From contig OY730172.1 in assembly GCA_963422465.1 (NCBI GenBank), positions 3,224,001 through 3,288,000 of the forward strand: a stretch of DNA of 64,000 bases, in the 5' to 3' direction. This document shows, in pieces, positions 5,331 to 42,487 of the stretch (positions within the stretch are counted from its first letter, which is position 1; every line of letters begins with the position of its first letter). The position numbers were made by a program, and so were the translations under genes. The stretch comes from Lichina pygmaea (taxonomy: Eukaryota; Ascomycota; Lichinomycetes; Lichinales; Lichinaceae). The notes under the pieces are model-generated. The model did no database searches and had not been told where the DNA came from. It was given only the letters and a program-made list of their open reading frames with translations.

Positions 5331-5394
5331 GTACTTGGTGACAGACTCAGTGACAGACTTGGTGACAGACTCAGTAATAGATTCTGACCTGACA

Positions 5395-12274: not shown

Positions 12275-13780
12275 ATTCTCTTCTCTTACCAGAAACTTCA
12301 AGATTTCTTTTGTTACATTCCCTAGTCACACCCTGCCTTCAGTTTTTATCTCTTCAACAGTTTTCTGAAGGAGTTCACTATTAGCTAGAAGATCTGCATG
12401 GCTGTAAAGCTACTACCAGTGTAAGAATCAAATAAAAATAAAATAAATAAATAAATAAAGCATCAATGATGTTTTGGGACCTGACATCCTTGATGTCTTT
12501 GGCACTGCCTATGTGGATGACATCCTTGTCTACAGTCAGACACTCAAGGAACACTGGAAGCATGTCAAGCTAGTTCTCAGTCGACTACAAGATGCAAGCC
12601 TACAAGTTGACATCTCCAAGTGTGACTTTGAAGTGCATCAAGTGAAGTACCTTGGCCTCATCATTCAGTCTGCCACTGAAGATGGCTGACCCAGATCTGT
12701 GAGCATGGACCCAGCCAAGACCAATGCCATCAAGGAGTGGAATCCTCCTGCCAGTCTCAAGGAAGTGCAGAGCTTCATTGCCTTTGTAAACTTCTACCGC
12801 TGGTTCATCAAAGACTTTGCCAAGCTTGTATCCCCACTCACAGCTCTGACCAAGAAGAATGTTGCCTTCAAGTGGGAAACCCCAGAGCAGCACTTGTTTG
12901 AAAGTATCAAGAAGGTGTTCAGTACTGCACCCATCCTGCAGTACTTTGATCTGGAGAAGGAGTGTGTTGTTGAGACTGACACTTCTGACTACGTCTCTGG
13001 TGCTGTCCTGTCACAGCCAGACCATGAAGGAGTTCTACACCCTGTTGCCTTCTTGTCACGCTGCCATCTGCCAGCAGAATGCAACTATGAGATCTACGAC
13101 AAAGAGTTGCTGGTAATTGTCTGTGCCTTTGAAGAATGGTGAGCAGAGCTTGAAGGATCTCCAGAACCTGTCAAGGTGATCTCTGATCACAAGAACTTGG
13201 AGTACTTCATGTCATCAAAGTGCCTTTCCCACCGTCAAGCCTGTTGGAGCAAGTTCTTGTCACACTTTAATTTCAAGATCAGCTACTGTCCAGGCAGTCA
13301 GTGCAAGGCTGACACCCTCACTTGACATTCCCAAGACCTCCTGTCAGACAGTGATCCCTGTCAAGACTTCATGGAGCAAGTTGTCCTCAAGCCCAAGAAT
13401 CTTGCACATTCAGAGGTTCAAGTCAAGCCCATCCAGATCCTGAGATGTTCAGAAGCTGCACCAGTTGACACTGAACCTGATGCTGCACCTCTTTCAGACA
13501 TCATCCAAGCTGCCTATAACAACCTTGCTGAAAGTGATCCAGTGGCAACAGTGTCACAGATACTAAGGGATAGTGTCAGGTGTCACAGTTCTGGCCCAGT
13601 TGTATATCTGGCACAAGTCACACACCTTGCCGGGAAGTTCCATCTGCACGCACCTTGCTGGGAAGTTCCATCTGCACTGTTGCCTGTTTGCTCCACTGTT
13701 GCCTGATCCCCTGCCTATAAGAACTTCTCCTGCTCCCCCAGCTTCTTCTCTTCTTTTCTCTTTTTCTTCCTTCCTTGTCT

Positions 13781-14537
13781 TGTGACAAGGCAATGGCAGA
13801 GCAGAACTTGAGCCTAACTGATTTGGTAACCTTGACCTGACTTGGCTTGAGACTTGAGACTTGGATTGATGTACAAGATGATTTTGATTTTTGATTTGAT
13901 TTGATTCTTACACTGATTTGGCTGTTAAGCTATGCAGAACTTCTTGAAGGATTTTTGTCTCTGGTAGACTTGACTCAGGGACCTCACACATTTACTGTAC
14001 ACCCCGTGGTTTGTAGTGTACGTACTGTGGGAAAACCCCAAACCCCGTAGGGGAAATAGGAAAACCACAGTAATGAGGGTTTTGTGGATCTTGACAGATA
14101 TTGGGTGAGCTATTTCTTGGGGGTTTTCATACATCTTGCGAGGAGTACATCTTAGACAAGTTCTATAAATCTCAGGGGTTTTTGTGGCAGAATGTGGGGT
14201 GGGTCAGATTCAAACTGACAACTGGTTTAGTCAGGTTCTCCAGGCCTGACACCACTAGTTCCGGGTCATGGGTGCCACGTAGTGGGAAACTCTCACCAGC
14301 TTCCCACTACACCATGCCACCCTATGTACAAGACGAAAGACAAGGAAGAAAGAAAAAGAGAAAAGAAGAGAAGAAGCTGGGGGAGCAGGAGAAGTTCTTA
14401 TAGGCAGGGGATCAGGCAACAGCAGAGCAAACAGACAACAGTGCAGATGGAACTTCCCGGCAAGGTGCGTGCAGATGGAACTTCCCAGCAAGGTGTGTGA
14501 CTTGTGCCAGATATGCAACTGGGCCAGAACTGTGACA
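13781..14537 (-). mobile_element. Solo LTR of Gypsy-1 family (minus), nested
   Basis: A reverse-oriented Gypsy-1 LTR (on the plus strand TGTGACAAGGCAATGG ... CCAGAACTGTGACA) sits inside the plus-strand solo LTR. It is flanked by TGTCT (13776-13780) and TATCT (14538-14542), a 5-bp target duplication with one mismatch. It is split by the SINE at 13882-14323. The result is the order half-LTR(+), half-LTR(-), SINE, half-LTR(-), half-LTR(+), which at first sight resembles a complex inverted repeat. Confidence 0.85.
13882..14323 (-). mobile_element. tRNA-like SINE with LINE-type tail
   Basis: A 442-bp insertion with no coding capacity, flanked by a 13-bp target duplication, ATGTACAAGATGA (13869-13881) and ATGTACAAGACGA (14324-14336). 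Read on the minus strand, it begins AGGGTGGCATGGTGTAGTGG, which contains a pol III A-box-like TGGTGTAGTGG. A B-box-like GTTTGAATCTG lies about 110 bp in, and a second A-box-like TGGTGTCAGGCC lies about 45 bp before it. It ends with CAGTGTAAGAATCAAATCAA and further ATCAAA repeats, nearly the same as the 3' end of LINE C. A shared tail and long duplications are what is expected if the LINE machinery moved it. Only one copy is in the window. Confidence 0.7.
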
Positions 14538-15646
14538 TATCTTTTGTCTTGTACATCAATCCAAGTCTCAAGTCTCAAGCCAAGTCAGGTCAAGGTTACT
14601 GAATCAGTTAGGCTTGAGTTCTGCTCTGCTATTGCCTTGTCACATCAGGCACAGTCGAGAAGTGTCTCTCTCAGACTGCAGCTTGGAAAATAACTGTCTC
14701 TTCTACAAGAACTGACTCTGGATCCCTGAGAACAATGAGCTACACCTACACCTGTTCCAAGAAGCTCATGACCAAGCAATAGCTGGCCACACTGGGATTG
14801 CCAAGACCCACAATCTTCTGTCTTGTTGGTACTATTGGCTAAAGATAGTGAACATTATATAGCAGTACATCAGTAATTGTCATGTCTGCTCTCAAGCAAA
14901 GCCTGCCTGTGATCGCCAAGAAGAGCTGCTGTCTCTTCCCGTACCTTAGCAACATTGGTAGGATCTGGCTATAGATTTCATTACTGACTTGCCCAAGTCA
15001 AGAGATGCCTGCTTCCCTGGTGCCAAGCACATCTGGGTCATCACTGACTGTCTCACCAAAGAACACCACTTTGTGCCATGTGCTGAGATAACAACCTCAC
15101 ATCTTGTCTGGATGTTCATCCAGTTTGTTATCTGTACCCATGGCTTGCCCAGGAGCATTGTCTCAGACAGAGAAGGTCAGTTTGTCAGCTTATTCTGGAA
15201 AGCACTCTGTGCCCATCTTGACGTTGAACTACGACTATCCTCAGAACACCACCCAGAGACAGATAGTCAGATGGAACAAGAGAATCAGGAGCTTGAACAC
15301 TACCTGAGATCCTATGTCAACTATCTCCAAGATGACTGGGTCCAATGGCTTCCTCTGGCAGAGTTCACGCAGAACAACTCCCAGTCTGATTCCTCTGGCA
15401 TGTCACTGTTTTTTGCCAACAAAGAGTTCTATCCACAGCTCAGCATCACACCCATGAGTGAAGTCTGCAACCAAGATGCTATGGAAATCTCTGGAGAAAT
15501 GACGCAGATTCTGGAACAGTTGCAAGCTGAACTCCGACTATCCCAGGAAGCTCAAGCTCACACCACCAATTTGCATCAAGTCCTGTCATTATCCTATCAA
15601 ACTGGAGATCTTGTTTGGCTGAATACCAAGAACATCAGAACACGCC

Positions 15647-16202
15647 TGTTATGACCCAGGGGATGGGAGCCACTCATTTATAGGCAATCAGGCCGCGGGC
15701 CAGGCAAGAGGACACCATGGAAGTCAAGTGACCAACCAACAAGGGGTCACGTGACTGTCGAGACACACAGGAGTCTCGACACAGGATGCATGAAGCATCG
15801 AGACAATCTCACCAGTCTCGACGCAGGATGCATGAAGCATCAAGACAATCTCACCTGTCTTGACGCAGGGTGCATAACATGGTGGGACCATCAAGACAAT
15901 CTCACCTGTCTTGACATCAAGACTGTCGAGACAATCTCAATCATCTTGACAGGCCAGCACTATATAGTCTGGCGATAGTTCCCTTATGGAACAATCGTCT
16001 TCAACTCATGTTGTGATCCAGACAACTAGATCTACTTCAATACAATCCTTTGTACGAAGCTGTTGATCAGGTGTCACCACCACCACATTCCACCAAACCC
16101 CTTCGCGCTCCTTGACACTCCTCTCCTGCAAGAACCAACCCGCCTTCCACCTCTCGCCCTAATCCTATACTCGGATAGGACAGTACAGTACAGACCGCAA
16201 CA
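15647..16202 (+). repeat. Gypsy-2 5' LTR (556 bp)
   Basis: TGTTATGACC ... GACCGCAACA. U3 carries three to four copies of a ~43-bp unit around GTCTCGACGCAGGATGCATG (about 15755-15930), built from GTCTCGAC/GTCGAGAC inverted halves. A TATA box ACTATATAGTCTGG lies at about 15957-15970. The 3' part from the TATA box onward is nearly identical to that of Gypsy-3. Confidence 0.9.
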
Positions 16203-19200: not shown

Positions 19201-21191
19201 GACAGAACTCACGAAGAAGGACGTGGAGTACTGGTGGACGGAGAGACAACAAAAAGCATTCCAACAGCTCAAGGACGCTTGCGCCAAGGAACCAGTTCTC
19301 CTCAACTTCAAGACAGGCCAACCGACATGAATCAAGACAGACACTTCAGATCAGGCAGTGGTAGCATGTCTATGCCAACAGGCAGACAGCAAGTGGCACC
19401 CAGTTGCCTACTACTCACGAAAAATGACACAAGCAGAACAAAACTATGATATCCACGATAAAGAGCTACTGGCAGTCATCAACGCACTCGAACACTGGAG
19501 AGTGTACACGGAAAGCAGTTCTGAACTCACCATTCTCACAGACCACAAGAATCTGACAACGTTCACAACAACCAAGAAGCTGAACAGATGGCAAGTCAGA
19601 TGGGCTGAACTCCTAGGGCAACACAAGTTCAAGATCTTGTATACCCCTGGACAAGACAATAGGAGAGCAGACGCACTAAGCCGACAAAAAGACCACATGG
19701 AAGATGATGAACGCCAAGGAACAATCTTACAGCAGGACCAGCAAGGAAACCTGGTGCCTCAACCACAGATCAACAAGCTCACGGCAGAAGACACTGAAGA
19801 ACTAATAAGGAACTACCATGACAATCCAGCACATGGTCACCCAGGAATCTCCAAGACCACAGACCTTATCCAACAGGCAGGGAACAATGTCATTAACCTC
19901 TGACAACATATCACAAACTACATCAGCAAGTGTCTACTATGCCAGAAAAACAAACATGGAAGACATAAGCTATACAGAGAAAGACACCCGAACACAATAC
20001 TGAGAGGCCTGTGGGAAGACATGTCAATGGACTTCATCACAAAGCTACCCAAGTCCAAAGACCCAGTCACAGGAATCACCTACAACTTGATTATGGTGAT
20101 AGTGGACAGATTCACAAAATATCTAATAGCAGTACTATTCAAGGAGACCCACACAGCAGAACAGTTGGGACACCTCTTACTGGACAGGTTGGTCAGAGAC
20201 CACGGAGTTCTGATCACAATCATTACAGACAGAGATAAACTCTTCACATCCAACTACTGGAAGACAATCAGTGCAGCCATGGGAACAAAACCCAAAATGT
20301 CTACAGCCTATCACCCACGAACTGACAGCCAGACGGAGTGAGTGAACCAAGTCCTGGAGACTTACTTACAGCATTACATCAACAAGACCCACAGCAATTA
20401 GGTACAGTTATTACCGGTGGCACAGCTGGCAATCAACCAGCACAGATCAGACTCAACAAAGGAATCACCATTTTTTGCCAATTTTGGACAACATGTGAAC
20501 ATCAGGATGCCAAGCAGAGCTTCACCAAACACGGAGAAAGCACTCCAACACAACAAGCTCCTACGACAAACACACACGATGATGAGGCACTACCTTCAAG
20601 AGACCTCAGAAAGAATGCAATGTCAAATAGACAAGAAATCAAAAATAGTACCTCAGCTAAAGAAGGGGGATAAAGTCTACCTCCTCACAAGAAATTGGAG
20701 AATGAAGAAACCAAGAACAAAGAAACTGGACTATGTTAAGGTCAGACCATTTCCAGTCGAAGAAAAAACCAGACCAGTCAACGTCGGACTGCGACTACTG
20801 AGAGACGCTCAGGTACACCCAAACTTTCACATCTCAATGATCGAATTAGCCAACCAGAGCACACCCTTGCAGGAAATGTTTCATTACCAACCAGAGGAAG
20901 AACAGGAATTCAAGGCTGAACAGATCCTGAAGAGAAAAGGTCAGCGATACCTTGTCAAGTGGAAAAACTACCCAGACTCGGAAAATACCTGGGAGCCACT
21001 CAGGAACCTCGCGAACTGCCAGCTCCTCCTGTAGCAGTTCTGGCAGAAGCAGGACTGAACAGCTCAGCCTGCAGCGTGGACACGTCAATAACTGTTGCCG
21101 ACAAGTCTTCACCATCCACCTCCATTTCAGCAACAAGGCACTGGAGCTTCTTCTTTGCTCAACCCTCAGCACCCTCAAGAACCTTTCACTT

Positions 21192-21431
21192 TCAGGACAC
21201 ACAAGCCTGCAGCTTGGCAAGCTGCTCAACAAGAGCATCCCGCTTGGCCTCATCAACAGCCAAATTCTTGTGAAGGTTATCCTGAGTCATGTTCAGCAAC
21301 TCCCAAGAAAGTGACACACAGGACTTCCCATGACAAGTGCATTCAGCGCACTTCAACTTATTGTTGTTGTCAGACATTCGGAAGCAGGGCTTGTGGTTCA
21401 AAACACAGAAGTCACACAGAGCAAGTGACAC
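21192..21431 (-). other. Antisense Cys-rich ORF in Gypsy-2 (fossil accessory gene)
   Basis: An open minus-strand stretch between the chromodomain and the 3' LTR. It reads LCDFCVLNHKPCFRM, then KLKCAECTCHGKSCVS, SWELLN, and an acidic/basic heptad-like helix (DEAKRDALVEQLAKLQ). The C-x2-C ... C ... C-x2-C ... C spacing suggests a zinc-binding module followed by a coiled coil. The counterpart in Gypsy-3 (27919-28233) keeps the Cys pattern despite strong divergence, and similarity extends beyond this open stretch on both sides. It resembles small Cys-rich 'hypothetical proteins' I recall from fungal retroelements. The function is unknown. This copy is broken. Confidence 0.6.
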
Positions 21432-21544
21432 AAAGTTATGATCACAGATCTGGGCTGCCAGTTGGTTTCAGTAAGCAGAGGCATGTGATTTTGCAGACAT
21501 ACTCAAGAATTCATCGGGATGATGAATGAAGGAAAGGAGGGTAG

Positions 21545-22144
21545 TGTTACGACCCAGAGGATGGGAGCCACTCATTTATAGGCAATCAGGCCACGGGCCA
21601 GGCAAGAGGACACCATGGAAGTCAAGTGACCAACCAACAAGGGGTCACGTGACTGTCGAGACACACACAGGAGTCTCGACGCAGGATGCATGAAGTATCA
21701 AGACAATCTCACCAGTCTTGACGCAGGATGCATGAAGTATCAAGACAATCTCACCAGTCTTGACGCAGGATGCATGAAGCATCAAGACAATCTCACCTGT
21801 CTCAACACAGGGTGCATAACATAGTGGGACTGTCAAGACAATCTCACCCGTCTTGACGTCAAGACTGTCAAGACAATCTTGATCGTCTCAACAGGCCAGC
21901 ACTATATAGTCTGGCGATAGTTCCCTTATGGAACAATCGTCTTCAACTCATGTTGTGATCCAGACAACTAGATCTACTTTAATACAATCCTTTGTACGAA
22001 GCTGTTGATCAGGTGTCACCACCACCATGTTCCACCAAACCCCTTCACACTCCTTGACACTCCTCTCCTGCGAGAACCAACCCGCCTTCCACCTCTCGCC
22101 CTAATCCTATACTCGGATAGGACAGTACAGTACAGACCGCAACA
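21545..22144 (+). repeat. Gypsy-2 3' LTR (600 bp)
   Basis: TGTTACGACC ... GACCGCAACA, preceded by the polypurine tract GAAGGAAAGGAGGGTAG. It is 44 bp longer than the 5' LTR, the size of one more U3 tandem unit. The tandem units span about 21655-21870 and the TATA box lies at about 21900. Confidence 0.9.
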
Positions 22145-22504
22145 ACGCCACCCATGCAAAAAGTTTGACGACAAGTGGATTAGACTATTCAAGATGTTGA
22201 AGACAGTCGGAAGCCATGTCTGCCATCTGGAGCTTCCACATACTCTCAAGATCCACCCTGTCTTTCATGTTTCCCTTCTACATCTGACACCTGCTAATCC
22301 TATCCCTGGCCAATCAAATGAACACCCTGGCCCTGTCATTGGTCAAGACACAGATGAAGAGTTCCAGGTTGAAGAAATCCTTGACTCCAAGCCAGCAATG
22401 TCTTGACAGAAGTTCAAGTACCTGGTCAAATAGTCTGGATAGCCAATTGAAGATGCCACTGAAGAGCCTATTGAGCATCTTGACAACACCAAAGACACCA
22501 TCTA

Positions 22505-23135
22505 TGTTACAACCCAGGAGGAACACAGTCTTTATATACTCACAGAAAGCAGCAGACAGGATACTGGACAGAAGTACCAGGCAGTGTGACACAGGAACCA
22601 GTCACGTGACCGGCAAGACAAACCGGAGGGTGCTCGCCGCAGTATACATATGCACAAACAAGTGAGCAAAGTGAGCAGAGCTCACCCAGCTCACCACAGC
22701 GTGCATGAAAAGTGAGCAAAGTGAGCAGAGCTCACCCAGCTTGCTGCAGCGTGCATGAACAAGTGAGCAAAGTGAGCAGAGCTCACCCAGCTCACCACAG
22801 CGTGCATGAACTGTGAGCAAAGTGAGCAGAGCTCACCAATCTCACCAAGTGAGCAAAGTGAGCAGAGCTCACTATACTCACAAACTGGGCACTATATAGT
22901 CTGGCGATAGTTCCCTTATGGAATGATTGTCTTCAACTCATGTTGTGATCCAGACAACTAGATCTACTTCAATACAATCCTTTTGTACAAAGCTGTTGAT
23001 CAGATGTCACCACCACCATGTTCCACCAAACCCCTTCACACTCCTTGACACTCCTCTCCTGCGAGAACCAACCTGCCTTCCACCTCTCACCCTAATCCTA
23101 TACTCAGATAGGACAGTACAGTACAGACTGCAACA
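22505..23135 (+). repeat. Gypsy-3 5' LTR (631 bp)
   Basis: TGTTACAACCCAGGAGG ... GACTGCAACA. U3 contains about four copies of a ~50-bp unit starting GTGAGCAAAGTGAGCAGAGC (about 22660-22880). The TATA region CACTATATAGTCTGG lies at about 22890, followed by R-U5 nearly identical to Gypsy-2. Confidence 0.9.
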
Positions 23136-26100: not shown

Positions 26101-27918
26101 TTAAGAACTACTCACAGATAGCAACACCACTGACAGAACTCATGAAGAAGGATGTGGAGTACTGGTGGACGGAGAGATAACAAAAAGTATTCCAACAGCT
26201 CAAGGACACTTGCACTAAGGAACCAGTTCTTCTCAACTTCAAGACAGGCCAACCAACACAAATCAAGACAGACACTTCAGATCAGGCAGTGGGAGCATGT
26301 CTATGCCAACAGGCAGACAGCAAGTGGCACCCAGTTGCCTACTACTCACGAAAAATAACACAAGTGGAACAAAACTATGATATCCACAACAAAGAGCTAC
26401 TGGCAGTTGTCAACGCACTTGAACATTGGAGAGTGTACATGGAAAGTAGTTCTGAACTCACTGTTCTTACAGACCACAAGAATCTGACAATGTTCACGAC
26501 AACCAAGAAGCTGAACAGACAGCAAGTCAGATAGGCTGAACTCCTAGGGCAACACAAGTTCAAGATCTTGTACACCCCTGGACAAGACAATAGGAGAGCA
26601 GACATACTAAGCTGATGAAAAGACCACATGGAAGATGATGAACACCAAGGAACAATCTTACAGCAGGACCAGCAAGGAAACCTGGTGCCTCAACCACAGA
26701 TCAACAAGCTCACGGCAGAAGACACTGAAGAACTAATAAGGAACTACCATGATAATCCAGCACATGGTCACCCAGGAATCTCCAAGTCCAAAGACCCAGT
26801 CACAGGAATCACCTACAACTTGATTATGGTGATAGTGGACAGATTCACAAAATATCTAATAGCAGTACTATTCAAGGAGACCCACACAGCAGAACAGTTG
26901 GGACACCTCTTACTGGACAGGTTGGTCAGAGACCACGGAGTTCTGATCACAATCATTACAGACAGAGATAAACTCTTCACATCCAACTACTGGAAGACAA
27001 TCAGTGCAGCCATGGGAACAAAACCCAAAATGTCTACAGCCTATCACCCACGAACTGACAGCCAGACGGAGTGAGTGAACCAAGTCCTGGAGACTTACTT
27101 ACAGCATTACATCAACAAGACCCACAGCAATTGGGTACAGTTATTACTGGTGGCACAGCTGGCAATCAACCAGCACAGATCAGACTCAACAAAGGAATCA
27201 CCATTTTTTGCCAATTTTGGACAACATGCGAACATCAGGATGCCAAGCAGAGCTTCACCAAACACAGAGAAAGCACTCCAACATGACAAGCTCCTACAAC
27301 AAACACACACAATGATGAGGCACTACCTTCAAGAGACCTCAGAAAGAATGCAACATCAAATGGACAAGAAATCAAAAATGGCACCTCAGCTAAAGAAGGG
27401 GGATAAAGTCTACCTCCTCACAAGAAATTGGAAAACAAAGAAACCAAAGACAAAGAAACTTGACAACATCAAGGTCAGACTATTTTTAGTCAAAGAAAAA
27501 ACAGGACCAGTCAATGTCAAGATACAACTACCAAGGGATGCCAGAGTCTATCCAAACTTTCATATATCAATGATTGAACCAGCCAACCAGAGCACACCCT
27601 TGCAGGAAACATTCTATTATCAACCTGAAGAAGAACAAGAGTTTGAAGTTGAACAGATCCTGGCTAGGAAAAGTCAGCAATACTTCGTCAAGTGGAAAGG
27701 ATACCCAGACTTGGAAAATACCTGGGAACCACTCAAGAACCTTGTGAACTGCCAGCTTCTTCTGCGACAGTTTTGGCAGGAGCAGGACTGAACAGCTCAG
27801 CCTGCAGGAGAGACATGTCAATGACTGATCAAGTCAAATCCTCACCATCCAACTCCATCTCTTTCACCAAGCACTGAAGCTTCTGCCTTGCACAGACCTC
27901 AGCGCTCTCCAACATCTT

Positions 27919-28233
27919 TCACTTCTGAGATAGACAAGCCTGCACTGTGGCAAGTTGTTCAAAGAGTGTGTCGTGCATTGCCTTGTCAGTGGCCACATCC
28001 TCACAGAGGTTGTCCCAGGACATGTTCAGAGATTCCCAGGACACAGAGACACAAGACCTTCCGTGCTGAGTGCACGCAGCACATTTCAACTTATTGTCTT
28101 CTCCCAACATCTGGAAGCACAGATGACCACAAAGAACACAAAAGTTGCAGGGCGTACGTGAAACAAAACCCTGATCGCAGATTTGAGCAGCAAGCTGAGT
28201 TCGGCTAACAGTCACACATGACTTTGGAGGCAT
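27919..28233 (-). other. Antisense Cys-rich ORF in Gypsy-3, open for 104 codons
   Basis: A minus-strand ORF that starts 43 bp inside the 3' LTR boundary and runs toward the chromodomain. It begins MPPKSCVTVSRTQLAAQ and continues with CNFCVLCGHLCFQM, KLKCAACTQHGRSCVSVSWE, and a helical tail with an Asp/Glu- and Leu-rich heptad look. It shares every Cys of the CxFC, CF and CAxCTxHGxSC core with the Gypsy-2 ORF, although the remainder is only about half identical by eye. A small zinc-binding protein with a coiled coil is the likely fold type. A promoter on the opposite strand in or near the 3' LTR would be needed for expression. No function can be assigned. Confidence 0.65.
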
Positions 28234-28276: not shown

Positions 28277-28749
28277 TGTTATGACCCAGGAGGAACACAG
28301 TCTTTATATACTCACAGGAAGCAGCAGACAGGATACTGAACAGAAGTACCAGACAGTGTGACACGGGAACCAGTCACGTGACCGGCGAGACAAACTGGAG
28401 GGTGCTTGCCGCAGCATGCATGAAAAGTGAGCAAAGTGAGCAGAGCTCACCGATCTCACCAAGTGAGCAAAGTGAGCAGAGCTCACTATGCTCACGAACT
28501 GGGCACTATATAGTCCAGTGATAGTTCCCTTATGGAATGATTATCTTCAACTCATGTTGTGATCCAGACAACTAGATCTACTTCAATACAATCCTTTTGT
28601 ACAAAGCTGTTGATCAGGTGTCACCACCACCACATTCCACCAAACCCCTTCGCACTCCTTGACACTCCTCTCCTGCGAGAACCAACCTGCCTTCCACCTC
28701 TCACCCTAATCCTATACTCGGATAGGACGGTACAGTACAGACCGCAACA
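28277..28749 (+). repeat. Gypsy-3 3' LTR (473 bp)
   Basis: TGTTATGACCCAGGAGG ... GACCGCAACA. It is 158 bp shorter than the 5' LTR, about three fewer U3 tandem units (only one to two remain, about 28425-28495). The TATA region lies at about 28505. Confidence 0.9.
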
Positions 28750-28852
28750 ATCTACAACTTCCATGAGAAATACCCAAGGAAACCACAGGCACAGAACTAC
28801 ACCCACGAGCGGCCTGAGGCTCACAGGAGTTCGCCATGTGAAGGAGGGAGGT

Positions 28853-30127: not shown

Positions 30128-31570
30128 GTGACTCTTTGTGAACAACCCACTGTGCAGGTTACCTACCCTATACCTGTCAAAAAGAAGAAACCGGACTCCT
30201 CCCAGAACACTACCAGAAAAACAACACTTTCTCCAACAATACCAGCTCCCAGTTCTGCTGGTACTCGGCCTAGTTCTTCTACCCCCTATCCAGCTCTCCA
30301 GAATGACTACAACCTACTGGACTCATGGCTCAAGACTCAAGCTACCCCAGAATCTGTACTGAAAAGCTGGGAGAATATTAAGAAAAACTCTTGTACTAAT
30401 GAAGCCCAGTCCACCAAAACCCAGTCTCTCCCCACTGGTCTGACCAACAAGATTTTCCAGAAGCTGGAGAATATTAGCAAGCGGCTAGACAAGCAAGAAT
30501 CTAAGCCATCATATGCCCAGGCTGTTCAGAAACATATCCCAGCTCAAATCCCTCTAGCTCCAAGGATTCTGAAGGAAGTTCTTGTCCACCCTGGTAACCA
30601 GACACCTGATATGGCCAACAGGACTCACATCCAGCTTTTTCAAGCTCTCCAAGACAGACTCCCCAGTCCCTATAATAAACAAGTCAGAGCAGTGAGAAAA
30701 CTTCCCTCAGGGGATATTCTTATTAACACTGAAACCCAAGAGACTAAGAGTTTTCTGGAGAAAGACTCTGCCTGGATATCAGCTATTTTTACCAAGGAAG
30801 CAACTATCCAACCCAAGAGATTCCCAGTGTTGATTCATGGAGTCAGAACCACAGACATCCAGCCAGAAAACCTGGAAAAAACTCGCCAGACTATCCAGAA
30901 CAGCAACCTATCCCTGAGCAAGCAAATCACTATTCTAAGAGCCTACTGGTCAAAGAAGGCTATAGCTCAAAAGAAACCAGTTACTTCACTCCACCTGGAT
31001 CTGGCCACCCCGGAACAGGCCAATCTTCTAATTGAGAGTGGAGTAGTGCTAGGCCACAGATTGCATGAGGCAGAGCCTTTTCTGGCTAACACAGTGGTGG
31101 CACAATACTTCAAGTGCTTTGGGTATGGACACCAAGCTCGCCTGTGCAGGAATCAAGCTGTATGTGGTGCCTGTGGAGGCCAGCATGAAAGAAGAACCTG
31201 CCAAATCCCTGAGCAACTGCTAAAGCCAAAATACAGCAACTGCAAAGGAGCTCACCCAGCCTGGGCTAGCACATGCCCAGTACGCCAAGAAACAGTCAAG
31301 AAGGCAAGAGATGCATGGATTTCCCGCCCAGGGAAGTATGAGATCTCCACTGCTACCACTGTCCCAGTCACACAGTCTCCAGTTACTTTCCCCTTCATAC
31401 AGACTCTTCCAGGAGGAAAAAGACAGAAAACCACAGAGCCAACTAGAAGCTCAGAGAGACTCAGAGGAGGGTCTCCAGAAGTGCAAATTCTGTCTACAAG
31501 ATCAACAAACACAGGGGGAAAGCAGTCAGTCAACCTCTTCAAGATCTTTGAAGATGAAATGTCTACATGA
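30128..31570 (+). CDS. LINE C ORF1, intact RNA-binding gag-like protein (480 aa)
   Basis: The only ORF1 here with an intact frame and ATG. The N-terminus is Pro/Ser/Thr-rich and basic (~1-110), and a helical stretch NKIFQKLENISKRLDKQE (~100-120) may mediate oligomerisation. The conserved core follows (SPYNKQVRAVRKLPSGDILI; TSLHLDLATPEQANLLIESG), then three Cys motifs near residues 330-385 (YFKCFGYGHQARLC, CGACGGQHERRTC, YSNCKGAHPAWASTC; the first Cys of the third is Ser here). The C-terminus is basic and Ser-rich. In Tad1-type LINEs this protein coats the RNA. It ends in a 4-nt ATGA overlap with ORF2. Start chosen by alignment with LINE A ORF1, although the first residues differ. Confidence 0.8.
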   Translation: MTLCEQPTVQVTYPIPVKKKKPDSSQNTTRKTTLSPTIPAPSSAGTRPSSSTPYPALQNDYNLLDSWLKTQATPESVLKSWENIKKNSCTNEAQSTKTQSLPTGLTNKIFQKLENISKRLDKQESKPSYAQAVQKHIPAQIPLAPRILKEVLVHPGNQTPDMANRTHIQLFQALQDRLPSPYNKQVRAVRKLPSGDILINTETQETKSFLEKDSAWISAIFTKEATIQPKRFPVLIHGVRTTDIQPENLEKTRQTIQNSNLSLSKQITILRAYWSKKAIAQKKPVTSLHLDLATPEQANLLIESGVVLGHRLHEAEPFLANTVVAQYFKCFGYGHQARLCRNQAVCGACGGQHERRTCQIPEQLLKPKYSNCKGAHPAWASTCPVRQETVKKARDAWISRPGKYEISTATTVPVTQSPVTFPFIQTLPGGKRQKTTEPTRSSERLRGGSPEVQILSTRSTNTGGKQSVNLFKIFEDEMST

Positions 31571-33955
31571 AGAATACAAAGTTCACACTTCTTCAATACA
31601 ATGTGCAGAAAAGCCAATCAGTCCAAGAGCTACTTCTAGCAACCCCAACTCTTCAAGAAGTAGATATTATTGCACTTCAAGAACCCTGGAAGAATCCTCA
31701 CCTTCAAACTAGCACCTCAACTGTTTTTTCTTCTTTTCTTCCTTTATATTCTCCAGAGATTGGTAGAACTCTTTTTCTTATTAACAAAAACCTGAAACTG
31801 TCATCTCTCCACCCTACTTTCTGGAGTAAAGACTTTGTTTCTCTTGAAATTCATCTGGAAAACATCTCTACTTCTCTGTGGGTGCATAATCTATACTTCA
31901 CTCCCTCAAGTCAAGAGAACTACCTACAAGCATCAGAAGCTCTTCTCTGTCTACTCCAAAATGCTTTACAAGCAAAAGGGCAGCATATTCTTCTTACAGA
32001 CTCAAATCTTCACCACCCTGACTGGTCAAAGAAAAGAAGACTATATTCTGACACTGCACACAAGTTCCAAACTCTAATAAAAAACTCAAATCTGGAGTTA
32101 GCTATTGCACCTTTTACACCCACAAGAGCTAGATCTCTTTCCCACAAACCCTGGTCACCTATTGATCTTTCCTTTATATTTTCTTCTCTTTCTAACTCTC
32201 TAATCTTTTCTAAAATTGCTTTGCAGTTCTTTCATGGGTCTGACCACAGACCTGTACTAACTAGCCTGGACCTGGACTCACCAAGAAAAACCTGGAAGCC
32301 AGAAAGGAACTGGAAAACACTGGACACAAACCTGGCAAAACAAGAGTGTAATAATTTGCAGCTGCCCTTCCACTTTCAAGATAAACATGAAGTGGATGAG
32401 TACTTGGAATATCTTAACCACTTTCTCCAAGAAATAGCAGACAGATGCACAGAACTCCAGAAGCAATCTAGCCACTCAGTCCTCTGGTGGAACCAAGAGA
32501 TCCAAACTAAAGTTAAGCAGGAAAGAAGAATAAGAAGACAAGTGGTCAGAGGACAGGCAAGCCAAGAAGAGCTAGAAGAAGCAACTAAGCTCAAGAAGAA
32601 AGCTGTCAGAGAAGGCAAACAGAACACCTTCAGAAAACAAGTTCATGAGCTAGCCAGTTCCTCAAAATTCTGGAAGCTTGCAAAGTGGGGAAAATCAAAA
32701 GCTAACAAGACCCCTGATCTTTCTCTGGTCCCTGATCTGGAGACTCAAGAAGGACTAGCCAAAAGCTTTGAGGAGAAGACAAAATCTTTCTCAGCTTAAT
32801 TCTTTCCAGAAGCATGTGTTCCAGAACCAAGTACAGAAAGTCACCAGAGTACTCCAGAGATCCAGCTTTCTCAGGAGGTTACCACTGAAGAAGTGGAGCA
32901 AATTCTGAACAAGAAGAAACCTTTTACAGCAGGAGGAAAAGACAAGCTGCCAAATGGATTTCTGAAAGTGCTGGGTCCCAAGTTCTGCCAAGCTATAGCT
33001 GTTCTCACATCAACATGCTGGAGACTGGAATACTTTCCAGAGAAATTCAAGAATGCAAAAATAGTCTGTCTAAGAAAACCTGGCAAGGGAATCTATAACC
33101 AAGCTAAAGCCTGGCGCCCAATAGCTCTGCTAAACACAACTGGCAAGCTGATGGAAGCTATTACAGCAGCCAGACTAAGCAAGGTAGCAGAAGAGGCTAA
33201 ACTCTTGCCAGAAATCCAGATGGGGTTCAGGAAAGGCAGATCAACTGAATCAGCACTTTTCCTTCTAACTTCCCAAGTGGAAAAAGTCTGGAAAGAAGGC
33301 ATGGTTGCATCTCTACTTTCTCTGGACATCTCAGGAGTATATGACAGAGTTCTCCCAGAGATTCTTCAAAAGATTCTGGAGAGAAAAGGAATCCCTCTCT
33401 GGCTAACTTCTTGGATCTTCTCTTTCTGTACCAGACGTACCACCACCCTAGTTTTTGATGACTCTGAGTCCTCTTCTATTCCTATTCACTGTAGAGTTCC
33501 CCAAGACTCCCCTTTGTCTCCTATTCTTTTTCTATTCTATATTTCTGAACTTCATGAGACTGTACATTCTCCTACTACTGGTGTTTCTGCTCTGGGAGTT
33601 GCAGATGATACAAATCTGCTTGCATTTGAACACTCTCTGAAAAGCAACCTTCTGAAGTTGAAGAATACACATCTTAAATGTCTATCTTGGGCTGCAAGAC
33701 ATGGAATAGTCTTCTCTCCTGAGAAATATAAAATACTTCATTTTTCCAGAAGAAGATCAGACAATCTGCAGCTCAAGCTTAGACTTGGGAATGTGATTCT
33801 AAAACCAAAAGAAGAAGTGCAAGTATTGGGAGTGTACCTGGATGCCAAACTCCACTGGCACAAACACCAGAGAATTATTCTTCAAAAAGCACAAAAAGCA
33901 CTATCTTCTCTTTCTAGAACCTCTTACTCCACCTGGGGCTTTCCAGTTCTCACAG

Positions 33956-34222
33956 TGTCACAGTTCTGGCCCAGTTGTATATCTGGCACAAGTCACGCAC
34001 CTTGCTGGGAAGTTTCATCTGCACTGTTGCCTGTTTGCTCTGCTGTATCCCCTGCCTATAAGAACTTCTCCTGCTCCCCCAGCTTCTTCTCTTCTTCTTT
34101 TCTCTTTTCCTTCCTGGTCTTTCATCTTGTACATCAATCCAAGTCTCAAGTCTCAAGCCAAGTCAGGTCAAGGTTACCAAATCAGTTAGGCTTGAGTTCT
34201 GCTCTGCTATTGCCTTGTCACA
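33956..34222 (+). repeat. Gypsy-1 copy 3 5' LTR (267 bp)
   Basis: TGTCACAGTTCTGGCCC ... GCCTTGTCACA. It contains a C/T-rich block (CCCCCAGCTTCTTCTCTTC) and TATAAGAACTTCTCC as a likely TATA region near 34057. Confidence 0.92.
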
Positions 34223-37200
34223 CTATGAAAGACCTACCCAACCATAACACACTTCACCAAGCCATGTTCACATCCTTGTCATGTCTCAACAACCAGACCA
34301 AGCCATGCCAGTTGCTGGAAATGATAAGTTCCTTCACAACATGTTTGCAGAATTCATGCAAATTCAAGCTACTAACACTACTCCCAAGTCCAAGTCTGAA
34401 CACACTGCTGACCCAGAGATCTTCAGTGGCGATGGTGGAAACACGGAAATCATGTATGAGAAGCTTGAGAGCTTCATCATGTCACTGTCACTCAAGATGA
34501 TACTCAACACTGACTGGTACCCCACGGAAACATCACAGATTGCGTACGTCTTTTCACGCACAACTGGCACTGCACAGTCCTACATCTCAGCTAAGATCAC
34601 GGCTGGCCAGTACATTGACTGGCACAATATCATCCAAGATCTCCGGAACACCTTCTCTGACCCAGACCCAGAGTTCCTAGCTCAGAGAAAGCTCATCACC
34701 TTGCGTCAGGCCAACTGTTCCTTTGCCGAGTTCTTCACAGAGTTTAATCAGTATACTCCACGCACAGGCTTCAACGACAAGGCCTTGAAGTGCCATCTTT
34801 GATGTGCTGTCTCTGAAGAGCTTGCCAAGCAGCTTGTCAGCATCAACCTCAAGGACATCAGCTATCAGAAGCTTGTTGAGGAATGCCAGCTGCAGGACAA
34901 CCAGTTGTGTGCCACTTCTGCCAACTCTCACTGTCTACGTCAAGCACCTCCCACTCAAGCCTCAGTTCCACAGTCAGGAGCTTCAGTTCTGTGTCCAGGG
35001 TTCATCAAGCCAGTCTTCACGCCACAGCCACCACGTCCTACTATAGATCTCAGCTATTCTAAGCTGACACCAGAAGAGTGAGAACATTGCTGAAGCAAAG
35101 GCCTCTGCTTCTACTGTGGGAACCAAGGTCATGTCTCAACCTTCTGTCCAGTGAAAAGCATGCCTGTTGTTGCCACCACCACAACCACCACCAAGTCTAC
35201 CACTGTTGAGACTACTCCAGAGTCAGAAAACAAGTAGTCCTTGGTCATCGTCACACCCAAGAACATGAAAAGAATCTCCATGTTGGCTATCTGTCTCCAG
35301 ACCAGCAATTGGACAGCAAGTGCTTGTTTCTTCCTTGTATCCTAGATGGGAAATTCAAGTGCAATACTCTTATTGACTCTGGCTGTTCAGTATTTGGCTG
35401 TATTGGTGCTTCCTTTGCACTATCTCTTCACCAAGAACCTCTCCCCTACCCACGCACATTGCGATCGTTTGATGGCAAGACATCACAAACCACACATCTC
35501 ACCAAGACAATCATGACCACAGCACATGGTGTGCACCAGGAAGAAGTCTCTCTCTTTGTGTCTCCTGGTCTTCACTATGATGTGATTCTGGGGATGCCAT
35601 GGCTCCAGAAGCACAGGCCACACATTGATTAGATAAACACCTCAATCATGTTCAAGTCAGATCACTGCTGATCCACATGCCTCAAGTCAAACAATAGCTA
35701 TCCAATCTCTTTGGATCTTGAAGCCAAGATATCTGCTGGAAAGTCTCAGAATCTCAAGCCCCTTTCTGCCACGCCAATCCCCATCAATACTGCTGTATTT
35801 TCTCTCCTTGCTGCCAAGCCAGATCACCAGATGTTCAGTGTTTCTCTGAGAGACATTGAGCAGGTGTTGAAGCCAAAGAAGTGTGTGGATCCTGCCACAC
35901 TTCTCCCTGCTCAGTACCACAAGTTCCTGGATGTCTTCAGCAAGGATGACGCTGACAAGCTTCCTCCTCTACGCCCAGGAGTTGACCACAAGATCAAGAT
36001 AGAACCAGAAACCCAGGCACCCTCTGGACCTCTGTATGGCATGAGCAGAGAAGAACTTGAAGTTCTCAAGAAGTACCTGACAGAGAACCTGAACAAGAGC
36101 TTTATTCAAGCATCTTCATCACCTGCTACTGCACCAGTCCTCTTTGTCAAGAAGCCAGGAGGTGGATTGTGTTTCTGTGTAGACTACAGAGCACTCAACA
36201 CTATCACCATCAAGAACTGTTACCCCCTACCACTGATCTGGGAGATGTTGGACCAGCTTTGCAAAGCTGTGTGGTACACCAAGCTTGATATTGTTGGTGC
36301 CTTCAACTGTATCTAGATGAAGGAAGGTGAAGAATAGAAGACTGTGTTCCGCACACGCTCAGACCTCTACGAATACCTTGTTATGCCCTTTGGTCTTGCC
36401 AATGCTCCAAGCACATTCCAGAACTACATCAATGATGTTTTGGGACCTGACATCCTTGATGTCTTTGGCACTGCCTATGTGGATGACATCCTTGTCTACA
36501 GTCAGACACTCAAGGAACACTGGAAGTATGTCAAGCTTGTTCTCAGTTGACTACAAGATACAAGCCTGCAAGTTGACATCTCCAAGTACGACTTTGAAGT
36601 GCATCAAGTCAAGTACCTTGGCCTCATCATTCAGTCTGCCACTGAAGATAGCTGACCCAGATCTGTGAGCATGGACCCAGCCAAGACCAATGCCATCAAG
36701 GAGTGGAATCCTCCTGCCAGTCTCAAGGAAGTGCAGAGCTTCATTGCCTTTGTAAACTTCTACCGCTGGTTCATCAAAGACTTTGCCAAGCTTGCATCCC
36801 CGCTCACAGCTCTGACCAAGAAGAATGTTGCCTTCAAGTGGGAAACCCCAGAGCAGTGCTTGTTTGAAAGCATCAAGAAGGTGTTCAGCACTGCACCCAT
36901 CCTGCAGCACTTTGATCTGGAGAAGGAGTGTGTTGTTGAGACTGACACTTCTGACTATGTCTCTGGTGCTGTCCTGTCACAGCCAGATCATGAAGAAGTT
37001 CTACACCCTGTTACCTTCTTGTCACACCACCACCTGCCGGCAGAATGCAACTACAAGATCTACAACAAAGAGTTGCTGGCAATTGTCTGTATCTTTGAAG
37101 AATAGTGAGCAGAGCTTGAAGGATCTCCAGAACCTGTCAAAGTGATCTCTGATCACAAGAACTTGGAGTACTTCATGTTGTCAAAGTGCCTTTCCCACTG

Positions 37201-38998: not shown

Positions 38999-39265
38999 TG
39001 TCACAGTTCTGGCCCAGTTGCATATCTGGCACAAGTCACACACCTTGCCGGGAAGTTCCATCTGCACTGTTGCCTGTTTGCTCTGCTGTATCCCCTGTCT
39101 ATAAGAACTTCTCCTGCTCCCCCAGCTTCTTCTCTTCTTCTTTTCTCTTTTCTTTCCTGGTCTTTCATCTTGTACATCAATCCAAGTCTCAAGTCTCAAG
39201 CCAAGTCAGGTCAAGGTTACTGAATCAGTTAGGCTCAAGTTCTGCTCTGCTATTGCCTTGTCACA
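38999..39265 (+). repeat. Gypsy-1 copy 3 3' LTR (267 bp)
   Basis: Same length as the 5' LTR and collinear with it. It is preceded by the purine-rich GTGAAGAAGGGGGGTAA. Target duplication CACAG follows at 39266-39270. Confidence 0.92.
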
Positions 39266-40306
39266 CACAGCATGCCTTGTGTACACTGCAATACTCAGAT
39301 CTGTACTGAGCTATGCAGTGGGAATTTGGTTCAACCCACTCAGAAAATCCTCTAATATTTCCTCTCTTATCATATTCCAAAACAAATGTCTGAGACTTAT
39401 TGGGGGTGCTTTGAAAGCCACTCCTTCTTTTCTATTAGAGAGTGAGCTTTTTCTTTTACCTCTAGATCTCTATTTTAAATTTCGCACAGCTTGTTTTCTA
39501 TCTTCTATCCAAGCCTCCTCTCTGAAAGAGTTTCTTGACAGTACCTTTTCTACTATTTCTTCCTATGCTTCTTCACTGAGGAAACCTTTAAAGAAATCCT
39601 CAACTATCTCTCCTAATTGGAAGTTCACTTGGTTAAGTCAAATAACTACTAACCAGGCTAGTTCAAAGAAAGAACTACAAATACTCTTTACTAAAGAGTG
39701 GGAAAACCAATGGGAGGAGAAGAAAAGAAAAAGCTATGCTGGATGGCAGGTGTTTTGCCAGAAACCTCACTACAACAACCTAAAGCTCTACAAAGAGCTA
39801 CAGAAAGCTGAGGCAAGTCTACTACTGCAAACCAGAACTGGGAGAATTGGTCTAGCAAGTTTTCTTTTCAGAGCTGGAGTCCCTGACTTTCCTACCCCCC
39901 TATGCATGTGTGGTCAAGCAGAAGAGACAGTAAAGTATATTACCTCTTCATGCTCTCTCTACTCAAGTCAAAGACAACATGGTCTTTTTAACCCCCAAGA
40001 TTTCACTACTATTATTTCAAACCCAGAGCTTCTACAGAAGTTTCTGTACTGGTTTATGTCTTTGAAAAGACTAAACCAGTTTAATCTGGCTTCCAAACTT
40101 CACTATTCACACTCCAACATCTAGAAGCTTTTCCTACCAGACACTACAAGATTTCCTTTTGCTACACTTTCCAGTCACCTCCCTGTCTTCAGTTTTTATT
40201 CCTTTAAAGGTTTTCTGAAGAAGTTCACTATTAGCTGGAAGATCTGCATGGCTGTAAAGCTACAAACAGTGTAAGAATCAAATCAAAAATCAAAATCTGT
40301 ACAGCA

Positions 40307-40666
40307 CTGTGTAACAGGAACAACTATAGTCTGAACAGAAGAACTATTGGACTGGTTGCTCTGCTTGACCTGTTAGACCTGCTTGACCTGTTCAGACAGG
40401 GCAGGCAGAGCAAGCAGAGCAGGCAGAGCAAGCAGAGCAGGCAGAGCAAGCAGAGCAGGCAGAGCATGATACTTCTTGAGTGGAACATCTTCCCAGAAAT
40501 CTCTGTATATAAGAGCACCAGGGAGAATAGCTCTCCAGACTGAATGTACTATAGCAACAACAATAGCAAGAGAGTTACCCATCTTGCTATTCATCTATTG
40601 AGTCCCTGTTCTTCTTACCCAGACACACAGACCAGCCATCTTCTGTGTGAACTTGGCCTGGTCCTT
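40307..40666 (+). other. Possible solo LTR of an unnamed family
   Basis: A 360-bp stretch starting near TGTGTAACAGGAAC and ending near CCTTAACA. It holds a tandem repeat (unit ~18 bp, AGCAGAGCAGGCAGAGCA type, about 40398-40467) and a TATA-like TGTATATAAGAGC at about 40503. That layout (U3 repeats, TATA, leader) is LTR-like, but no clean target duplication was found. It joins directly to the DNA left of LINE C (before 29626), since LINE C split them. Confidence 0.35.
40398..40467. repeat. ~18-bp tandem repeat (GCAGGCAGAGCAAGCAGA type)
   Basis: About four copies of an 18-bp unit alternating CAGGCAGAGCA and AGCAGAGCA; purine-rich on the plus strand. Confidence 0.85.
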
Positions 40667-40680
40667 AACACTGGATAGAG

Positions 40681-42465
40681 TTGGACTATTGCCAGATATC
40701 CAGATGGGCTTTAGGAAAGGAAGATCCACAGAAGCAGCACTTTTCCTTCTAACCTCCCAAGTGGAAAAAGTCTGGAAGGAAGGCATAGTTGCATCCCTAC
40801 TCTCACTGGATATCTCAGGAGCCTATGACAGAGTTCTCCCCAAGATACTACAGCAAATTCTGAAAAGAAAAGCAATACCTGCCTGGCTAGCTTCCTGGAT
40901 CTACTCCTTCTGTGATAAGCGCTCTACCACTCTTGTCTTTGATGATTCTGAGTCTTATTCTATTCCTATTCATTGTGGAGTTTCTCAAGGTTCTCCATTA
41001 TCCTCTATTCTTTTTCTATTCTACATTTCTGAATTGCATGAGACTGTGCATACTCCCTCTTCTGGTGTATCTGCCCTGGGGTTTGCAGATGATACAAATC
41101 TGCTTGCTTTTGGTCACTCCTTGAAAAGTAACCTTCTGAAGTTAAAGAACACACACCACAAATGTCTATCCTGGGCTGCAAGACATGGAATAGTCTTCTC
41201 ACCTGAGAAATATAAAATACTTCATTTTTCCAGAAGAAGATCAGACAATCTTCAGCTCAAGCTCAGACTGGGGAATGTGATTCTCAAACCAAAAGAAGAA
41301 GTGTGAGTACTTGGAGTGTACCTAGATGCAAAGCTCCACTGGCACAAACACCAGAGGATTATTCTTCAAAAAGCACAGAAAGCACTCTCTTCTCTTTCTA
41401 GAACTTCCTATTCTACTTGGGGCTTTCCAGTTCACACATCACGTCTGGTGTACACTGCTATACTGAGATCTCTACTGAGCTATGCAGTGGGGATCTGGTT
41501 TAACCCTCTAAGAAAATCCTCCAATATCTCTTCTCTTGTTTCATTTCAAAACAGATGCCTAAGACTTATTGGAGGTGCTTTCAAAGCCACTCCTTCTTTT
41601 CTATTAGAGAGTGAGCTTTTTCTTCTACCTCTAGACCTCTACTTTAAATTTTGCACTGCCTGTTTTCTTTCTTCTATTCAAAACTCCCCTCTCAAATACT
41701 TTCTTGACAGTATCTTTTCCACTATTTCCAGCTATGCCTCTCTCTTGGAGAAACCTTTAAAGGAATCCTCAACTATCTCTCCTAAGTGGAAATTCACTTG
41801 GTTAAGTCAAATAACTACTAACCAGGCTAGTTCAAAGAAAGAACTACAAAAGCTCTTTACTAAAGAGTGGGAAGACCAATGGGAAGAGAAGAAAAGAAGA
41901 AGCTATCCAGGCTGGCAGACTTTCTGTCAAAAGCCACACAAAAACAATCTGAATCTCTACAAAGAGTTACAGAAAGCTGAGGCAAGTCTGCTACTGCAAA
42001 TCAGGACTGGAAGAATTGGTCTGGCAAGTTTTCTTTTCAGAGCTGGAGTTCCTGACTTCCCTACCCCACTATGTGTGTGTGGCCAAGCAGAAGAAACTGC
42101 AAAACATATCACCTCTTCATGCTCTCTTTATTCAAGACAAAGACAACAAGTCTCTTTTAATCCCCAAGACTTCACCACTATTATTTCAAACTCAGATCTA
42201 CTACAGAAGTTCTTGTACTGGTTTATGTCTTTGAAAAGACTAAACCAGTTTAATCTAGCTTTCAAACTCCACTATTCCCAATCCAATACCTAGATTCTCT
42301 TCTCTTACCAGAAACTTCAAGATTTCTTTTGTTACATTCTCTAGTCACACCCTGCCTTCAGTTTTTATCCCTTCAAAGGTTTTCTGAAGGAGTTCACTAT
42401 TAGCTAGAAGATCTGCATGGCTGTAAAGCTACTACCAGTGTAAGAATCAAATAAAAATAAAAATA
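40681..42465 (+). mobile_element. LINE D, 5'-truncated Tad1-like LINE
   Basis: Starts within the RT domain (GLLPDIQMGFRKGRS) and ends with the family tail GTAAGAATCAAATAAAAATA. It is flanked by a 14-bp target duplication AACACTGGATAGAG (40667-40680 and 42466-42479). The RT has DISGAYDRV, PLSSILFLFY and FADDTNLLAF. The frame is open except for one TGA at 41304-41306, where LINE B reads CGA; it then runs 41307-42293 to the CCHC module PLCVCGQAEETAKHITSSC. It is almost identical to LINE B, so this is a recent insertion. Truncation at the 5' end is normal for target-primed reverse transcription. Confidence 0.92.
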
Positions 42466-42487
42466 AACACTGGATAGAGAGCTATAT

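Follow-up and report, generated by a model that had tools for sequence, protein, structure and literature searches.

An antisense gene with Zn2Cys6-like cysteine spacing before the 3' LTR of Lichina pygmaea chromoviruses: a candidate regulator of its own LTR

The window, i.e., the whole stretch of 64,000 nucleotides of Lichina pygmaea DNA that was analysed, contains two Ty3 chromoviruses, G2 and G3, which carry a cysteine-rich antisense open reading frame (aORF) just before the 3' long terminal repeat (LTR). It was asked whether this frame is a gene at all, what kind of protein it encodes, and what such a protein might do for the element. A preliminary description had proposed an antisense accessory gene, perhaps for a zinc-binding protein expressed from an antisense promoter in the LTR. 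The frame and its neighbour on the inner side are the following.

27919..28233, minus strand: G3 aORF, 104 amino acids, C-x2-C-x6-C-x11-C-x2-C-x6-C and a possibly helical tail
21192..21500, minus strand: G2 aORF, same frame, one in-frame stop in the window copy, open part 21192-21431
27075..27791, plus strand: integrase C-terminus, SH3_Tf2-1 and chromodomain, end of pol (domain search)

Translation of the window gives a G3 aORF from ATG to TGA (27919-28233, minus strand; 104 codons), lying on the strand opposite to gag-pol between the chromodomain ORF that ends pol (27075-27791) and the 3' LTR (28277-28749), with the ATG on the inner side and separated from the LTR by 43 nt. The G2 frame aligns to it without gaps over 104 codons (window 21500-21189). 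Its open part, 21192-21431, is the portion downstream of the in-frame stop, and its ATG is placed at 21500 by homology. Both proteins are 56.7% identical over these 104 codons. The coordinates first given for the G3 frame and the G2 open part as well as the core CxFC..CF..KLKCAxCTxHGxSC were correct.

Both elements appear to have landed in a single older Ty3 element (14989-15654, 22145-22504, 28750-28850), of which integrase and chromodomain pieces were recognised by eye between and behind G2 and G3. In that element, the distance from the pol end to the next LTR-like repeat is apparently too short to accommodate an antisense gene. The window further contains an inverted repeat of 201 nt (13581-13781 and 14337-14537, 97% complementary, 555 nt apart), a degenerate minisatellite at 5328-6123 with periods of 15 to 87 nt and long open frames on both strands, and several LINE copies that from the look of their ORFs we take to be Tad1-like (8070-11863, 30128-34500, 39258-43506; Exo_endo_phos_2 was assigned to 31567-32799 by domain search).

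The frame is not confined to the window. Searched against the 8 contigs (32.5 Mb) of the genome from which the window comes, the G3 ORF gave at least 150 scored matches from 496 candidates and the G2 ORF at least 150 from 490, and hundreds of element copies bear the aORF near one end on the opposite strand. The copies analysed were those that could be excised whole, 49 of G3 and 24 of G2; excluded were a copy lying at the edge of its locus and L001, which duplicates the copy in the window. The G3 sample comprised the window copy, the matches of ranks 2-8 and every second match of ranks 10-88 (48 of the 150 listed) and an extra copy from L038, the G2 sample the window copy, 20 of the 150 listed matches spread across the table and three copies found in G3 loci, and both samples are biased towards copies resembling the query.

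Across all 104 codons, 30 of 49 G3 copies have no stop in the antisense frame, and none of the 49 is free of stops in any other frame. Among the 24 G2 copies, 5 have the antisense frame without a stop, and 10 do when only codons 1-100 are considered; a stop at codon 103, present in 17 of 24, is taken as the normal end of the G2 aORF. One sense frame is stop-free over the whole segment in 8 of 24 G2 copies, and in G3 the sense frame is broken in most copies solely by a near-terminal stop that is common to 49 of 49. In the window copies, the sense frame is open at 27888-28208 (G3) and 21095-21529 (G2). As the sense frame is nearly as open as the antisense frame, openness alone cannot single out the aORF, and the sense frame across the G3 aORF (window 27924-28205), open yet unselected, is a warning against trusting open frames at this place. 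A stop recurs at one N-terminal antisense codon (17/49 G3, 11/24 G2), intact copies exist, and past that codon (codons 12-100) the frame is open in 46 of 49 G3 and 17 of 24 G2 copies. Minor alleles within the families are mostly of CpG type (635 of 821 in G3, 240 of 366 in G2), and thus the copies are decaying. Such decay, and a stop that recurs at the same codon in G2 and G3, point to methylation of CpG sites and their deamination in L. pygmaea.

The comparison between the two families was more informative than the frames themselves. In 1176 G3 x G2 pairs, the antisense frame showed a pS of 0.728 and a pN of 0.234, i.e., a dN/dS of about 0.11, a value that is approximate because pS is near saturation (the cysteine core taken alone is saturated). 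The open sense frame reached 1.26, and other frames ranged from 0.84 to 1.26 with one exception, sense frame -1, at 0.23. Differences per site at antisense codon positions 1, 2 and 3 were 0.29, 0.22 and 0.53, and of the columns in which each family has an 80% majority, 15 of 81 first, 12 of 89 second and 43 of 84 third positions differed. Cysteine, SW and LN sites persist between the families. Within families, no frame stands out among the 49 G3 and 24 G2 copies and all are near-neutral: antisense dN/dS was 0.60 in G3 and 0.55 in G2, other frames gave 0.42-0.66 and 0.49-0.78, respectively, and codons 1-24 of the antisense frame gave 1.06 and 0.89. The family-wide dN/dS proposed earlier as a check was therefore uninformative within families, at about 0.6 in every frame, but decisive between them. 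The claim of more conservation than expected by chance is borne out by this between-family change (0.11 versus 1.26), whereas frame openness alone would not have proven it.

The six cysteines of the G2 and G3 proteins have the spacing of the Zn2Cys6 (Gal4-type) cluster, C-x2-C-x6-C-x11-C-x2-C-x6-C. Scanning 305,211 bases for this exact pattern yielded 55 places, all of them G2/G3 aORFs. A looser pattern, C-x2-C-x6-C-x(5-16)-C-x2-C-x(6-8)-C, in which x(5-16) was our own choice and is wider than the PROSITE range, was absent from 20 shuffled windows and gave 73 matches: the 55 G2/G3 aORFs, 4 of another family (C), 13 translations of U3 arrays and 1 of a minisatellite. Because array and minisatellite translations match as well, the loose pattern alone is no proof of a Zn2Cys6 protein.

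The four C matches (in L009, L017, L038 and L048) belong to a different gene, whose protein has the canonical Zn2Cys6 motif CxxCRRDxAKC...CxxCxxKxxRC, a long tail and an acidic end. In L009 and L038, it lies antisense behind the chromodomain pol end of another element family (domain assigned by eye) and overlaps the pol C-terminus by about 140 nt. Within this overlap (L038:4395-4534, L009:940-1079), both strands may be coding. As a query in the same genome, the C gene gave at least 150 scored places from 309 candidates for its two groups together, a close group, C1, and a second, C2, at about 57-68% identity. Among 24 C loci read, 21 entered the alignment (A3), and L009, L017 and L048 were excluded as broken or cut. 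Between C1 and C2 (8 x 13 copies, 104 pairs), antisense dN/dS was 0.21 over codons 1-124 and 0.09 in the cysteine core, and the other frames gave 0.67 to 2.74 except for the mirror frame, at 0.39 and 0.21, respectively; in the pol-overlapping end, the antisense frame gave 0.42 and the mirror frame 0.31.

The aORF might be a chance opening or the shadow of a sense gene, as 36 of 49 G3 and 9 of 24 G2 copies have no stop in the first 93 codons of the sense frame. This is hardly credible, and it is ruled out not by openness but by selection in both comparisons (G2 x G3, C1 x C2). Between G2 and G3, dN/dS is 1.26 in sense and 0.11 in antisense. In frame -1, which is open in no copy (0/49 G3, 0/24 G2), synonymous sites coincide with antisense third positions, and the low value of this frame is a reflection of these. 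It is thus well supported by these sequence comparisons that the aORF is a real coding gene under selection as a protein. The proposed antisense accessory gene is supported by the between-family selection and by two further chromovirus groups with a selected aORF at the same place.

As to the kind of protein, each of the six cysteines is retained in 43-49 of 49 G3 and 23-24 of 24 G2 copies. Most other cysteines of the window copy are variable (kept in 29 to 35 of 49), and C100 is kept in 42 of 49 G3 and 21 of 24 G2 copies. The Pfam family Zn_clus (PF00172, cut-off 21 bits) was reached by no protein scanned, and G2/G3 members had no Zn_clus match at E<=10; they are therefore named Zn2Cys6-like and not members of the family. 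Zn_clus was the Pfam family matched by most C proteins, 11 of 21, with a best score of 16.9 bits and a best E of 0.0088, below the cut-off. Against PDB, all six matches of a single C1 protein at E<=10 were Zn2Cys6 proteins (Gal4, Hap1/Cyp1, Lac9), weak at E 0.73-6.5, and in the match at E 0.73 the C1 tail aligns along the Gal4 tail; unlike this single member, the C-group profile found zero Zn2Cys6 chains in PDB. Comparison of the C and G2/G3 profiles brought the six cysteines into register, but at a probability of no more than 6% (P 0.006). The basic residue that normally comes after the second cysteine in Zn2Cys6 proteins is absent from G2/G3, and a PROSITE-like pattern of basic residues between the second and third cysteines fits the 4 C-family loci and 0 G2/G3 copies.

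A genome search with Zn_clus listed 40 places and was thus blind to hundreds of aORFs. Of these places, 34 exceed the cut-off, which may be an undercount as introns were ignored; for a filamentous fungus, 34 is few. An AlphaFold prediction of the G3 protein from a two-sequence input was unusable (pLDDT 49), with a helix at 84-102 at a pLDDT of about 50.

Other likenesses of the G2/G3 protein were considered and set aside. The 45 sequences matched by the G3 ORF in PDB at E<=10 were 44 G-protein beta subunits and one RACK1, with a best E of 0.0011 and the next at 0.39, and this likeness was judged to be chance; the G2/G3 profile found nothing in PDB. Pfam matches of single members, such as DUF5477 (6 of 23), scorpion toxin (3), PHD-like (2) and others, were also judged to be chance, because all were below the cut-off and the models vary between members. 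DUF3716 was matched by 1 of 23 members (E 0.016), and the term was not found in the literature searched. A search of IMG/VR for relatives of the aORF gave 3 pattern matches, none of which was confirmed.

Taken together, the C1 and C2 products are likely Gal4-type clusters, and the G2/G3 product is a probable one. The zinc-binding reading put forward at the outset thus gains from the exact Zn2Cys6 spacing and from the motif in the C groups, but the Pfam cut-off for Zn_clus was not reached.

The features of the LTRs in the window are listed here.

22505..23135, plus strand: G3 5' LTR (LTR comparison)
28277..28749, plus strand: G3 3' LTR; target-site duplication ATCTA flanks the element
15647..16202, plus strand: G2 5' LTR (LTR comparison and repeats D12, D2)
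21545..22144, plus strand: G2 3' LTR; target-site duplication ACGCC
28302..28310, minus strand: G3 antisense TATA box, 77 nt upstream of the aORF ATG, near the beginning of the 3' LTR
21574..21580, minus strand: G2 antisense TATA box, 80 nt upstream of the aORF ATG, near the beginning of the 3' LTR
28507..28512, plus strand: G3 sense TATA-like site, by eye; about 94% identity to G2 resumes from here
21903..21908, plus strand: G2 sense TATA-like site, by eye

An antisense TATA box lies at -95 to -60 in 49 of 49 G3 copies (-75 and -77 being the usual positions) and in 24 of 24 G2 copies (-79 to -81), compared with 0/49 and 0/24 in three control stretches of equal length. The box of the window copy belongs to the LTR and is about 25-34 nt away from the junction with the internal region, and from this distance the antisense start would be expected near the junction. 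In the C loci, an antisense TATA box was found within about 130 nt in 0 of 24; their TATA-like site is beyond the array and seems to be sense-directed. The suggested antisense promoter in the LTR is a candidate in G2 and G3, where the TATA box is fixed in 73 of 73 copies, but such a box is absent from the C loci read.

A fixed antisense TATA box would also fit an element for which the antisense transcript and not the protein matters, for example as a double-strand RNA brake, an idea that is raised for plant elements in a review (PMC7264820). This is improbable for the elements studied here, since selection between families acts on amino acids (dN/dS about 0.11) with third positions changing most, and since an RNA role alone would not yield the pattern of kept cysteine, SW and LN sites.

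Beyond the antisense start and before the sense TATA, tandem arrays were found in all four groups. Those of the window are given below.

22660..22881: G3 U3 array in the 5' LTR, 50-nt unit; GTGAGC/GCTCAC, mostly in 9-nt steps
28427..28495: G3 U3 array in the 3' LTR, shorter
21655..21891: G2 U3 array in the 3' LTR, unit of 42 nt; half-sites resembling GTCTYRA/TYRAGAC, with steps of mostly 17 and 25 nt
15757..15932: G2 U3 array in the 5' LTR (repeat analysis)

Units are 50 nt long in G3, 42 nt in G2, 69 nt in C1 and 35 nt in C2 (one locus each for C1 and C2), and they contain short half-sites in both orientations. The G3 unit has two direct and one or two inverted GTGAGC at 9-nt steps; G2 half-sites are mostly alternating, at 17 and 25, those of C1 have steps of 9 and 26, and those of C2 alternate at 25 and 10. 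The G3 half-sites occur 17 times in the G3 5' U3 and 0 times in the G2 U3, and the G2 half-sites 13 times in the G2 U3 and 0 times in the G3 U3. The first statistic applied, pairing over the whole unit, was negative in G3, G2 and C2 (241, 274 and 811 of 1000 shuffles reach the value) and gave 11 of 1000 in C1. A second look, adopted after this test, was based on runs: paired runs of >=5 in one unit were reached by 0 (G3), 4 (G2), 1 (C1) and 11 (C2) shuffles per 1000, and runs of >=6 by 0, 2, 32 and 12, respectively. In five control units from the window, paired half-site runs were not enriched; one of these comes from the apparent LTR of the outer element, which is without such a gene. Inverted 7-mers in whole LTRs numbered 12 and 10 in G2, 7 and 14 in C1, and 9 and 18 in C2, with shuffle means of 0.5-0.8. 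In G3, the 5' LTR showed no excess (2 versus 1.4 in shuffles) and the 3' LTR a weak one (4 versus 0.8, shuffle maximum 4).

C1 and C2 have the half-site GGACGAG and a nearly identical loop between the second and third cysteines in common, and G2 and G3 differ in both. This correspondence of half-site and loop across the four groups is suggestive only, because C1 and C2 are related. A CGG-N12-CCG site was observed in the C LTRs of 5 of 8 loci.

From the sense TATA onwards, across gag and as far as integrase, the identity of G2 and G3 in the window is about 94% (pS in reverse transcriptase 0.10); then identity falls to 77-83% in the chromodomain, 63-69% in the aORF and 52-66% with many gaps in U3, before it returns to 95%. 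The corresponding pS values are 0.47 for integrase C-terminus and chromodomain and 0.74 for the aORF. Ahead of the integrase core, about 180 nt of G2 (19866-20048) have no counterpart in G3 (window 26781). The comparison also covered 44 loci holding G3 genes only. In these, reverse transcriptase (31 loci) is 94.2% identical to G2 and 93.2% to G3, and integrase (41 loci) 95.0% and 95.2%, whereas the chromodomain (44 loci) is 83.5% identical to G2 and 93.7% to G3. Their aORFs match G2 at 67.1% in 27 loci and G3 at 91.8% in 44; G2 U3 is matched somewhere in the locus by 4 and G3 U3 by 44. G2 and G3 thus differ in one 3' cassette of chromodomain, antisense gene and U3 array. The type of the aORF agrees with that of the adjacent U3 in 73 of 73 copies, which is weak evidence as gene and U3 adjoin.

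What the protein does with this neighbourhood can be read in more than one way. It might be a genuine zinc-cluster protein that acts elsewhere, in nuclear import, integration targeting or host silencing, while the U3 arrays serve transcription factors of the host. Arrays of enhancer repeats are common in LTRs, and the chromodomain, which belongs to integration, shares the exchanged cassette. Such a role is possible, though we would sooner expect it to be wrong: inverted half-site runs are found in the units of four groups and are absent from five control units, and the G2 and G3 arrays differ as the genes do, although neither fact about the arrays demonstrates binding. Another account concerns the cassette itself, which could stem from a single template switch in reverse transcription, with gene and array functionally unlinked. 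Chromodomain, aORF and U3 adjoin at the 3' end of the RNA, so that one switch would be enough, and we regard this as a substantial possibility, if short of an even chance. It leaves unexplained why arrays of inverted half-sites stand beside an antisense zinc-cluster-like gene in all four groups.

The best explanation, which as a whole model we consider evenly poised between right and wrong, is a self-encoded DNA-binding regulator of the element's own LTR. The aORF is an accessory gene of these chromoviruses. Read leftward from a promoter near the beginning of the 3' LTR, it would encode a Zn2Cys6-like (Gal4-type) protein that is small, dimeric and able to bind DNA. This protein would bind the U3 arrays of inverted half-sites, which separate the antisense start from the sense TATA, and might thereby control LTR activity in one direction or in both, a form of self-regulation in which the regulator and its sites travel together in the exchanged cassette. 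The layout can be likened to that of GAL1-GAL10, which share an upstream array. Zinc binding, dimerisation, expression, binding to the array and the direction of regulation are what we infer from the letters of these elements. A more far-reaching form, offered tentatively and rather doubtful in full, would be a repressor/operator-like module, in which an antisense Gal4-type regulator and its own half-site array in a bidirectional LTR promoter are exchanged whole between elements of near-identical gag-pol, giving separate immunity-like regulatory groups in one genome.

Antisense genes at this position have precedents. Boty-like Ty3 elements of Botrytis cinerea reportedly carry an antisense gene, brtn, which is said to have been described by Zhao et al. 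in Virology in 2011. PMC7264820, PMC8365987 and PMC4227169 cite brtn as an additional antisense gene. Like the aORF, it would be an additional gene of a fungal Ty3 element, placed antisense between pol and the 3' LTR, and judging from the name brtn-106 used in PMC4227169, it may be of similar length. Plant elements have antisense aORFs between pol and the 3' LTR as well, namely Grande gene23, RIRE2 and Retand TRP28; according to PMC7264820 and PMC11963269, gene23 is nuclear and has its own promoter, and tandem arrays lie nearby in about half of the Retand elements, while TRP28 is predicted to be DNA-binding (PMC11963269). Their protein domains differ from those of G2, G3 and C. The same sources mention HTLV, in which a gene is read antisense from a promoter in the 3' LTR, but protein and element are unrelated. 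A review (PMC7264820) states that it is not known what antisense genes located between pol and the 3' LTR do. In the titles and abstract openings covered, with most subscription journals outside this scope, a Zn2Cys6 antisense gene in an LTR element was not found.

With Gal4, Hap1 and Lac9, the aORF product has in common the six-cysteine spacing, a short linker and a tail that is possibly a coiled coil; it differs in being much shorter, below the Pfam cut-off and encoded antisense on a retrotransposon, and G2/G3 are without the usual basic residue after the second cysteine. Antisense accessory genes at this place are already known from Boty brtn and the plant aORFs, whereas the Zn2Cys6-like identity and the matched U3 arrays appear to be new. 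For one antisense gene of this kind, a definite type of protein can now be named, along with signs of selection and candidates for both its promoter and its binding sites. If the proposed regulation is true, LTR retrotransposons would carry their own transcription factor together with its operator array as an exchangeable module.
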